NCBI GenBank assembly: GCA_947630285.1
Contig: CANRHD010000010.1
Location: 1-64,000 of the forward strand
Reading direction: 5' to 3'
DNA length: 64,000 bases
Source: an uncultured Clostridia bacterium
GTDB lineage: Bacteria; Bacillota; Clostridia; Oscillospirales; Acutalibacteraceae
Shown here piece after piece: positions 141 through 48,836 of the stretch. The translations under genes and the position numbers were made by a program. The stretch's first letter is position 1, and every line of letters begins with the position of its first letter. Below the pieces are notes generated by a model. It was not told where the DNA came from. It made no database searches and was given only the letters and a program-made list of their open reading frames with translations.

Positions 141-452
141 AAGCAAACAGCCGCATTTTCATGCGACTGTAAGTGTGTAGAAAAAGTATGTGTCACTTGG
201 CAATAAGCATAAAAGGAGTAAGATTATGGTGAACCCCATGCGTGGGTTCCCCACCGCAAAACAGTCCACCGGACTGTTTTGCGCCCCTCCTGCGCTCTTT
301 GAAGCACAGGTGTTTCGCAGTCTGCGGACTGCGCCGGGGGCTTTGCCCCTCGACCCCACCACCTTTTGAAAAAGGCGGCCGAAAACTTTGGACATTTTGC
401 TATCGCAAAACAGTTTATCGACAAGCAAACAGCCGCATTTTTATGCGACTGT
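141..452 (+). repeat. Hairpin-array repeat, copy A, between duplicated terminator hairpins
   Basis: The core (171-422) is a series of inverted repeats: GAACCC/GGGTTC, CAAAACAGTCC/GGACTGTTTTG, CGCAGTC/GACTGCG, GGGGC/GCCCC and CCTTTT/AAAAGG. Near copies occur at 20489-20723 and 35700-35955 (both reversed) and at 46296-46555. It is bracketed by a 30-base direct repeat (141-170 and 423-452, one mismatch), each containing the hairpin ACAGCCGCAT/ATGCGACTGT. The element lies 3' of the surface-protein gene ending at 536. Positions 1-140 hold AT-rich sequence with no gene or other feature that I can see, and 453-535 hold nothing recognisable. The ORFs across the repeat are not credible proteins because the stems force them. 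Confidence 0.85.
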
Positions 453-20455: not shown

Positions 20456-20757
20456 GACGGTTCGGTACAAATTTAGTACCGAACCGTCAGTCTATTTGTA
20501 AAATATCAAAAGTTTTTGTCCGCCTTTTTTCAAAAAGACGGTGGGGTCGAGGGGCAACGCCCCCGGCGCAGTCCGCAGACTGCGAAACACCTGTGCTTCA
20601 TAAAGCGCAGGAGGGGCGCAAAACAGTCCGGCGGACTGTTTTGCGGAGGGGAACCCTCGCCGGGGGTTCCCATAATTTTTTCTTTATTACTTTTGCCCTT
20701 AACCGATAGCGACTATAAATTTGAACGGTGCGGTACAAATCAGTGTACCGCACCGTT
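20456..20757 (-). repeat. Hairpin-array repeat, copy B, between two related terminator hairpins
   Basis: The reversed and most diverged copy of the 171-422 element: it keeps CAAAACAGTCC/GGACTGTTTTG, CGCAGTC/GACTGCG, GGGGC/GCCCC and the poly-T/poly-A stem but has lost similarity at the ends. The flanking hairpins are GACGGTTCGGTAC/GTACCGAACCGTC (20456-20488) and AACGGTGCGGTAC/GTACCGCACCGTT (20724-20757), related to each other but not to those of other copies. Each probably terminates one of the convergent genes (ECF S-component, trxB). No gene lies in 20442-20809. Confidence 0.85.
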
Positions 20758-35677: not shown

Positions 35678-35955
35678 GCTCCGCCTTATAAAGCGGAGCT
35701 GTCAGCCTGTCGATAAACTGTTTTTCAATAGCAAAATGTCCAAAAGTTTTCGACCGCCTTTTTCAAAAGGCGGTGGGGTCGAGGGGCAAAGCCCCCGGCG
35801 CAGTCCGCAGACTGCGAAACACCTGTGCTTCAAAGAGCGCAGGAGGGGCGCAAAACAGTTCAGTGAACTGTTTTGCGGTGGGGAACCCACGCATGGGGTT
35901 CACCATAATCTTAATTCCTTTTGTGCATATTGCCAAGTGACACATACTTTTTCTA
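35678..35955 (-). repeat. Hairpin-array repeat, copy C
   Basis: The reversed copy of the 171-422 element, complete at both ends (ending at the rc of AGAAAAAGTATGTGTCAC). It carries paired changes that keep the stems: CAAAACAGTTC/GAACTGTTTTG and CCGCCTTTT/AAAAGGCGG. It follows the terminator GCTCCGC/GCGGAGC (35678-35699) of the epimerase gene. Unlike the other copies it has no second copy of that hairpin on the far side; instead AAATGCAGTCTTAAGTG (35966-35982) and CACTTAGGCTGCATTT (36031-36046) form a separate long-loop inverted repeat. No gene in 35651-36209. Confidence 0.85.
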
Positions 35956-46058: not shown

Positions 46059-46271
46059 ATGGATAACAGATTGAAAACACTTCGCAAGGACAGGGGTCTG
46101 ACGCAAATTTCCCTGCAAATGAAAACAGGCATTGAGCAATCTCTGCTGTCAAAATACGAAACGGGTGAACGCATACCCCCTACTGAGACGCTGATACTGT
46201 TGGCGGATTTTTACGGCGTGAGCATGGACTATATTATGCTCAGAACAGACAAACCCGAAATTAACAAATGA
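46059..46271 (+). CDS. XRE-family helix-turn-helix regulator
   Basis: A 70-residue single-domain Cro/CI-type repressor: MDNRLKTLRKDRGLTQISLQMKTGIEQSLLSKYETGERIPPTETLILLADFYGVSMDYIM. It lacks a sensor domain, so it may respond to a partner or to dosage. Start ATG 46059; AAGAGGAG is 10 bases upstream. Two palindromes lie upstream, which suggests autoregulation and control of the divergent membrane gene. Its stop overlaps the first hairpin of repeat copy D. Confidence 0.92.
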   Translation: MDNRLKTLRKDRGLTQISLQMKTGIEQSLLSKYETGERIPPTETLILLADFYGVSMDYIMLRTDKPEINK

Positions 46272-46581
46272 GCCTTTGGGAAAATCCAAAGGCTCAGCGT
46301 GTAGAAAAAAGTATGTGTCACTTGGCAATATGCATAAAAGGAGTAAGATTATGGTGAACCCCCGGCGAGGGTTCCCCACCGCAAAACAGTCCACCGGACT
46401 GTTTTGCGCCCCTCCTGCGCTTTTTGAAGCACAGGTGTTTCGCAGTCTGCGGACTGCGCCGGGGGCTTTGCCCCTCGACCCCACCGTCTTTTTGAAAAAA
46501 GACGGACAAAAACTTTTGGACATTTTGCTATCGCAAAACAGTTTATCGACAAGCTGAGCCTTTGGAAAACTCCAAAGGCTC
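46270..46581 (+). repeat. Hairpin-array repeat, copy D, between duplicated terminator hairpins
   Basis: The core (46296-46555) matches 171-422 nearly throughout, with all five stems, including CGTCTTTTT/AAAAAGACG. It is bracketed by two copies of one terminator hairpin, GAGCCTTTGG/CCAAAGGCTC, at 46270-46295 and 46556-46581; they differ only in the loop, and the second is followed by TGTTTTTG. This hairpin is not found at the other copies. An ATG preceded by AAAAGGAG opens a 68-codon frame across the element (from 46351), but the reading frame is more likely a by-product of the stems. Confidence 0.88.
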
Positions 46582-47972: not shown

Positions 47973-48012
47973 TATATTTTCCTCCAAATCCGTAATTTAA
48001 AAAGTTTAATAA

Positions 48013-48636
48013 TTATTCCTGAGGGGCTTCCTCAGCAGGTGTTGCTTCCTCGGCAGGAGCTGTCTCCTCGGCAGGAGCTGTCTCCTCGGCAGGAGCCGCT
48101 TCTTCGGCAGGAGCTGTCTCCTCAGCCGGAGCGGATACCTCTGCGCCGCCCTTGTCAACTATAGCCTGAATTGCACGGGCAAAAGCCGCAATAGGTGCGT
48201 TGAAAGCGTTGCAAACAGTTGCGAGCAATACCTCTCTTGAGGGAAGCTTTGCAAGACTGTTAAGCTTGTCTAAACCGATAACCTCGTTGTCGAGGAAACC
48301 GCTTTTGATAACAAAATTCTTGTTAGCGTCGGCATATTTTGAGAGTATTCTTGCGGCCGCCGTGTAATCATCTTCCGATGTTGCGATGGCGGTTGTGCCG
48401 GAAAGAACCTCATCAAGACCCGAAAGGTCTGTACCGTCGATTGCAAGATGAATAAGTGTGTTCTTAGTTACCGTGTACTTGACGCCGGCCTCACGAAGCT
48501 CTTTACGAAGCTTGGTGTCATCGGCAACGGTGATACCCTCATAATTAACAACCACACCTGCACAGGCATTACTGAGCCTTTCCTTGAGCTCGGCTACCTG
48601 TTGCTTTTTTAATTCTAATACTTTCTCACTTGGCAA
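48013..48636 (-). CDS. rplJ: 50S ribosomal protein L10 with long acidic tail
   Basis: A 207-residue L10. The core resembles other L10 proteins: MPSEKVLELKKQQVAELKERLSNACAGVVVNYEGITVADDTKLRKELREAG, and VLSGTTAIATSEDDYTAAARIL. The last about 40 residues are repeats of APAEE(T/A), longer than the usual short tail, at the site where L12 dimers bind. The start is TTG 48636, with AGGAGG 8 bases upstream; the GTG at 48645 overlaps that site. It is the first gene of rplJ-rplL, behind an L10 leader. Confidence 0.96.
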   Translation of the reverse strand: MPSEKVLELKKQQVAELKERLSNACAGVVVNYEGITVADDTKLRKELREAGVKYTVTKNTLIHLAIDGTDLSGLDEVLSGTTAIATSEDDYTAAARILSKYADANKNFVIKSGFLDNEVIGLDKLNSLAKLPSREVLLATVCNAFNAPIAAFARAIQAIVDKGGAEVSAPAEETAPAEEAAPAEETAPAEETAPAEEATPAEEAPQE

Positions 48637-48680
48637 ACGAATCACCTCCTATTAAAATGTTACGCTTGCTTTATGAGATT

Positions 48681-48803
48681 AAAAAACCTCTCTGACGCAA
48701 AGACAGAGAGGTGTAAACCTTAAAAATAAGTTTGTTCTCCCTCGGCAGGCAAGCTGTGAAAGCTTTTACGCATTAAATGCACCCACTGTCTTCGGCAAGC
48801 AGA
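48681..48803 (-). promoter_or_regulatory. Ribosomal protein L10 leader with attenuator
   Basis: The minus-strand leader contains GCCGAAGACAGTGGGTGC and GCCTGCCGAGG, the conserved strands of the L10 leader, bound by L10(L12)4 in autoregulation. It ends with ACCTCTCTG/CAGAGAGGT plus TTTTTT (48681-48713), an intrinsic terminator, about 45 bases before the rplJ start. Confidence 0.88.
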
Positions 48804-48807
48804 TATT

Positions 48808-48836
48808 ATATTAACATACCCTTACGGGTTTGTCAA
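48808..48836 (-). promoter_or_regulatory. Promoter of rplJ-rplL
   Basis: Minus-strand TTGACA (48831-48836), 17 bases, TAATAT (48808-48813). It starts 6 bases after the rplA stop. Confidence 0.85.

Follow-up and report, generated by a model that had tools for sequence, protein, structure and literature searches.

The window, i.e. the whole stretch of 64,000 nt that was analysed, contains four copies (A to D) of a short repeated element, which are associated with terminator-like hairpins. The body of copy A (171..428, plus strand), whose CAG/CTG tips are degenerate and whose ends read GTGTAGAAAAAG .. TTTATCGACA, lies between two hairpins recognized by direct reading (no strand is assigned to any of the hairpins), a left one at 147..170 (ACAGCCGCAT..ATGCGACTGT) and a right one at 429..452. 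Copy D (46296..46555, plus strand), identified by sequence reading and by the genome search, is bracketed by a hairpin at 46270..46295, situated 3′ of an open reading frame (ORF) that on reading resembles a helix-turn-helix regulator, and by a second one at 46556..46581, which is followed by the T-tract. Copy B (20489..20723, minus strand) is a divergent member sharing the hairpin-array core and having degenerate ends. Its hairpins reside at 20456..20488 and 20724..20757 (flank score 17.5), the two being distinguished by paired changes in the stem. Copy C (35703..35955, minus strand) is 5′-truncated, and a duplication was looked for around it and not found; a sole surviving hairpin (35678..35699) adjoins its intact CTG end. 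Thus, the pairs of stem-loops described in the original prediction for copies A, B and D were recovered by direct reading at exactly these positions. Mechanically predicted ORFs overlapping copies A and D do not exceed 96 and 124 amino acids, respectively. The window also contains a tandem array with a period of 18 bp (48011-48154) and a ribosomal protein L10 leader (48672-48813, minus strand).

The element belongs to the MITEs (non-autonomous DNA transposons) and has terminal inverted repeats. Its host genome (2.03 Mb, 33 contigs) was searched in three ways, by DNA comparison (40 near-full-length matches scored of 124 candidates), with a 5′-end pattern (46 matches) and with a core pattern (78), and merging of the results yielded 90 clusters genome-wide, two long copies being counted twice (C1:249975/250388 and C2:63151/63564). 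An alignment of 30 copies disclosed a length of approximately 255-265 bp, a mean column identity of 89% and an interior made up of an array of small hairpins. The aligned ends, CAG.GTGTAGAAAAAGTATGT on the left (also written CAG..TGTAGAAAAAG, CAG.GTGTAGAAAAA or CAG.GTGTAGAAAAAG) and TTTATCGACAG.CTG on the right, form an imperfect inverted repeat. In 40 of 50 copies CTG is followed by A, and in 29 of 50 CAG is preceded by T. The element is thus short, multicopy and devoid of a transposase gene, it carries terminal inverted repeats and, as set out below, it is accompanied by target-site duplications and empty sites. In three copies, an internal deletion has left 99 bp between the end motifs, while three others are enlarged (525-566 bp). 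In enlarged copies (C1:250388, C2:63151, C23:11118, C28:239 and others) an extra conserved insert, AAGGCGAGGGGAGCCGAAC..., was seen within the hairpin array. Judged by its letters, AAAGGAGTAAGATTATG in the 5′ part of the element looks like a ribosome-binding site with a start codon and might be a gene remnant.

Rfam, searched at gathering thresholds with the window and 15 element loci (including L184 and L193), did not reveal a family for the element. Within the genus, some match to it was obtained in 31 of 39 genomes, in several of them merely to its 23-bp hairpin. Loci L050-L059 of same-genus genomes contain a different repeat with AAAACAGTCCACCGGACTGTTTT; by eye, several of them resemble insertions at the 3′-ends of tRNA genes, and in several the tRNA-like 3′-end sequence recurs on the opposite side.

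Most copies share one arrangement: they reside at a terminator-like hairpin and stand between direct duplications that comprise the whole hairpin and usually 1-4 A/T bp on each side of it. Among the 43 near-full-length copies, 37 gave a flanking direct repeat score of at least 12.5 and six a score of 9 or less. For 172 cross-locus pairings of flanks, which served as control, the 95th percentile was 10.2 and the maximum 14, a value surpassed by 35 of the 43 copies. The hairpins hence match inside a locus but not from one locus to another, as had been anticipated. Of 36 divergent copies recognized by their core only, ten scored at least 15.5, compared to a maximum of 15 for 108 cross-locus pairings, and the other 26 lack a clear duplication. 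The two hairpin copies of a pair are often non-identical, full identity being observed in only 14 of 70 pairs. An inverted loop was found in two of 56 differing pairs and a paired double change in three of 41 pairs of the same length, too few cases to use them as a signature of template switching. At two loci (L228 and L247), the loops of the flanking hairpins are near reverse complements of each other. An ORF of at least 70 codons terminates within 200 nt at 37 of 38 sites in the host genome, though some of these ORFs may be spurious.

The sister genome G035, whose SecA fragment is 94% identical to that of the host genome, provided empty sites. Downstream of secA, the element lies in the host genome between two hairpins differing at one base, and a single orthologous hairpin is present in G035. 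For 30 secA loci, the 420 nt past the stop codon were inspected; the stop could be placed in 26 of them, among which the element was present only in the locus of the host genome itself, the other four being unreadable. Furthermore, the flanks of the clusters were searched for in 389 kb of G035 sequence, which corresponds to roughly one fifth of the genome. Both flanks were found side by side at ten sites (C1:16962, C1:44003, C1:93691, C2:86560, C2:151947, C6:10246, C6:17271, C22:26528, C22:27827 and C23:11118; the left flank of C6:17271, at the edge of its stretch, measures just 47 bp), and the element is missing from all ten in G035. Nine of these empty sites carry a single hairpin. At seven of the nine, the host genome exhibits a clear duplication (scores 18-34), and at the other two, C6:10246 (score 13) and C2:86560 (score 7), the second hairpin copy is weak or partial. 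The tenth site, C23:11118, has no hairpin in G035 and a short A/T duplication in the host genome. For C2:166952 and C13:24041, the two flanks were found in G035 kilobases apart. Six sites for which one flank was found were also viewed; a single hairpin is present at four of them, and the other two are ambiguous.

The original prediction had assigned the hairpin to the host terminator and assumed its duplication as target site. Both the locus-specific pairing and the single hairpins at empty sites, the latter having been expected in sister strains, support this assignment. Of the proposed simple target-site duplication of 24-33 bases, the duplication itself was borne out, while its length has to be corrected to 19-40 bp (67 sites). 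The prediction did not include the terminal inverted repeats, the dependence of the duplication length on the hairpin, the presence of the same ends on MITEs of other Clostridia or the short A/T duplications, the last three of which are described below.

Long duplications are not the only type. Under a mismatch limit, 48 of 54 rows of the host genome were kept as having both ends readable (C6:17271, C11:64809 and C28:239 are among the rows left out); 37 of these copies possess a long duplication and 11 were classed as lacking it. Seven of the 11 are directly abutted by an exact duplication of 4-11 bp consisting of A/T only (AATT, AATTAATT, AATATTT, AAAAATT, TTTT, AAATAA and ATTATTTAAAA). By chance, judged from cross-locus comparisons, a match of at least 4 bp occurs in 0.7% of all pairs and in 5.5% of the pairs among those 11 copies. 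Of the remaining four, C11:47843 had been mis-anchored at its 5′-end and does contain a long duplication (score 22.5), and around C10:35698, C17:18015 and C21:7533 neither a long nor a short duplication was found.

The left end of the element, TCAGCGTGTAGAAAAAG, is also present in other Clostridia. It was detected in six of 398 genomes of the family, belonging to four of 135 genera, and in at least 115 stretches of a genome collection, mostly from Clostridia assemblies, with chance matches in genes of other phyla. For the cross-species set, 81 occurrences in 80 of these at least 115 stretches were analysed. Two of them lie too close to a contig end, 37 gave no candidate and 42 gave candidate elements. 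Among the 37 are chance matches within genes of other phyla, elements truncated at contig ends and, by eye, at least one real-looking element (L189). A duplication score of at least 13 was reached by 33 of the 42 candidates (33 of the 81 occurrences), all of them in records titled Clostridia or subgroups thereof. They are short MITEs of 75-386 bp, which share the right end with the element of the window and are again flanked by a hairpin. At least three of the 33 (L198, L229 and L253) have a 5′ interior of the window type, and most interiors look different by eye, judged from the first 50 bases. In viral contigs, 31 stretches contained the left end, none of which was element-like on reading; they serve as negative control. 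Close to their left end, five MITEs of other genera (L147, L153, L161, L184 and L193) share a conserved block that is non-coding (TTTCTACACGCTGG..GA..GAGAAA). In genome G396 the left end occurs 27 times, and in the viewed loci (L152, L160, L164, L168, L171, L173 and L175) it forms an inverted palindrome. Several of these palindromes are located at contig ends, which suggests a repeated element breaking the assembly.

To study the dimensions of the duplications, we pooled the sites with a score of at least 13, 37 from the host genome and 33 from other species, and obtained a usable helix for 67 of the 70. With the hairpin defined as a contiguous helix anchored at its outermost G-C pair, the length of the duplication tracked the span of that pair (r=0.66, p=9e-10, n=67), and none of 20000 permutations was as tight; omission of two outliers raised the value to r=0.81 (n=65). 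The correlation depends on this definition, since r was only 0.35 (p=0.004, n=68) when mismatches were tolerated in the stem, and the outermost enclosing pair of an RNA fold gave a non-significant Spearman coefficient of 0.26 (p=0.12, n=36). The duplication exceeds the G-C hairpin span by a median of 4 bp (67 sites), the difference being 2, 4, 6 or 8 bp in 50 of the 67. Its first base is A in 57 and its last base T in 56 of the 70 sites. Moreover, among the 61 sites with distances of 0-5, the stem lies equally far from the left and the right end of the duplication in 50, compared to a mean of 15.6 and a maximum of 29 in 20000 permutations. Taking all sites, equal distances were determined in 53 of 67 with the G-C-anchored helix and in 54 of 68 with the mismatch-tolerant stem; symmetry is thus less sensitive to the definition than the length correlation. 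As the limits of the duplication are set by the element's own ends, the symmetry is not an artefact of measuring. Two sites bearing duplications, C8:65905 and C12:61460, are exceptional in having a weak stem. The length of the duplication appears to be set by the hairpin, which is the new part of the finding. This points to an insertion enzyme that recognizes the fold of its target rather than cutting at a fixed distance.

The explanation that we favour, and that as a whole we consider probable, is a MITE moved in trans by a DNA transposase, with its ends joined at the feet of an extruded cruciform and the hairpin copied in consequence. The palindrome would be extruded as a cruciform, and around its four-way junction the transposase would join the two element ends to the 5′ feet of the arms. 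The stagger of the enzyme itself may be short, the extruded hairpin lying within it without being counted, so that gap filling would copy the whole stem-loop. In a cruciform a single variable, the branch point, fixes both feet, which would explain equal distances in spite of varying length. The short A/T duplications at plain sites and the short-plus-hairpin duplications at terminators likewise fit one short-stagger enzyme, provided that the hairpin is extruded. Since the distal copy keeps both the hairpin and the T-tract, the gene should retain its terminator, and hardly any harm is expected from the insertion. A broader statement combines a target duplication of no fixed length, due to joining of the ends at the four-way junction where an extruded terminator hairpin has its foot, and the resulting preservation of the host terminator with a system that moves MITEs with different interiors across several Clostridia genera; for this combination we judge the prospects of being right and wrong to be balanced.

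Long, dyad-centred duplications could also arise without extrusion, if a transposase with a long flexible stagger acted on linear DNA and bound palindromes as a dimer. A symmetric dimer likewise predicts the dyad symmetry of the duplication ends, and duplications of 16-28 bp are described for one group of the IS1202 family in the available part of the source (PMC10132070). However, if the stagger were fixed or set by sequence, one would expect neither a duplication length that follows that of the hairpin nor the duplications of 4-11 bp which other copies of the same element have at plain sites, and we regard this possibility as unlikely. Quite unlikely, too, is a hairpin formed on single-stranded DNA, on the lagging strand or in a transcription bubble, with the enzyme acting there and the second strand being joined later. 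The mostly foldable targets, the proximity of the sites to ORF ends (with the reservation on spurious ORFs made above) and the inverted loops, which template switching would give, are in line with it, but a clean duplication next to inverted-repeat ends requires the joining of both strands.

Slightly less credible again are independent nicks in an A-tract on one side and a T-tract on the other; as terminators are located between tracts of this kind, the hairpin would simply be included. The prevailing A and T at the two limits of the duplications and the seven short duplications made up of A/T only agree with such nicks, which nevertheless predict independent distances and not the equality observed. 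Finally, there might be no target duplication at all, the element having inserted between two pre-existing hairpins or carrying the hairpin itself; no observation in favour of this was found. The hairpins are locus-specific, however, and each of the ten side-by-side sites of G035 shows one hairpin or none, which makes this reading extremely improbable.

Attempts were also made to identify the enzyme. No enzyme gene was seen inside element copies in the ORFs read at 14 + 4 loci, and an autonomous partner searched by its end sequence was found neither in 250 and 398 genomes of the family nor in 80 of the at least 115 collection stretches nor in the 31 viral stretches. As the inspected loci did not include an enzyme-bearing copy, the enzyme may be encoded by a chromosomal gene and act in trans. 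A transposase associated with these ends was not found in the 33-contig assembly with the families searched, PF13751, PF01609, PF00665, PF00872 and PF05598. PF13751 and PF05598, which we take to be the domains assigned to the transposase of the IS1182 family (IS1272-like), had no match in the host genome; PF13751 matched in one of 39 genomes of the genus and PF05598 in one of 11 genomes checked, G003 in both cases. PF01609 gave one match in the 39 genomes and none in the host genome. Matches to PF00665 were obtained in six of 11 genomes; the two of the host genome are partial, reside at contig ends and read IS3-like. Near the PF00665 matches no paired element ends were seen, only isolated degenerate end matches, two loci being cut by contig ends. 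PF00872 gave one partial match in the host genome. Partial sequences of the rve and Transposase_mut types are located at the ends of C9 and C6, both at contig ends, and at C12:1769-1996.

Normally, the length of a target duplication is regarded as a property of the transposase and serves for the classification of insertion sequences, whereas in the present case it seems to be dictated by the secondary structure of the target. The arrangement also suggests that terminators may serve mobile DNA as safe harbours, because the distal hairpin and its T-tract should keep the gene terminated, and cruciform extrusion in living chromosomes would become testable from sequence alone. MITEs with inverted repeats and target duplications are already known, as is the targeting of stem-loops. 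In the open-licence literature searched, we found no report of the duplication of a whole terminator, nor of a variable-length duplication of whole hairpins. Group IIC introns insert at intrinsic terminators as well and are RNA-based; they are not known to produce a target duplication. An identity with such an intron was rejected, since Rfam at gathering thresholds gave no intron RNA match in the window and the 15 element loci.

The element resembles RUP, SPRITE and BrickBuilt in being short, multicopy, non-coding, mostly intergenic and equipped with inverted-repeat ends, but a duplication of hairpin length is not reported for them in the accessible sections of the two papers (PMC10969869, PMC4596501). 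According to the same sections, predicted terminators or polyadenylation sites flank 10 of 19 instances of BrickBuilt, and its duplications (three of four copies) are short and differ between copies (PMC10969869, PMC4596501). With the IS1202 group that makes long duplications, the element of the window has the long target duplications in common. As far as the available part of the source goes, no target was recognized for that group, whose ends are TGT/ACA (PMC10132070), whereas the outer ends of our element are CAG/CTG, with TGT and ACA 5 bases inside, and its usual target is a terminator-like hairpin. A parallel in the choice of target is IS1272 of the IS1182 family, for which the accessible part of the paper by Wan et al. 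describes a stem-loop-replacing transposition into inverted repeats without a common sequence (PMC5678879). The element of the window also targets inverted repeats or stem-loops; it differs from IS1272, which possesses its own transposase and removes the hairpin without any duplication, by duplicating the hairpin. Wan et al. (2017) drew a cruciform model for IS1272, in which the entire stem-loop would become duplicated if the 5′ feet were attacked, an outcome that in this part of the paper is sketched and not observed (PMC5678879). Natural examples of such a stem-loop duplication, dozens in number, are provided by the copies described here.
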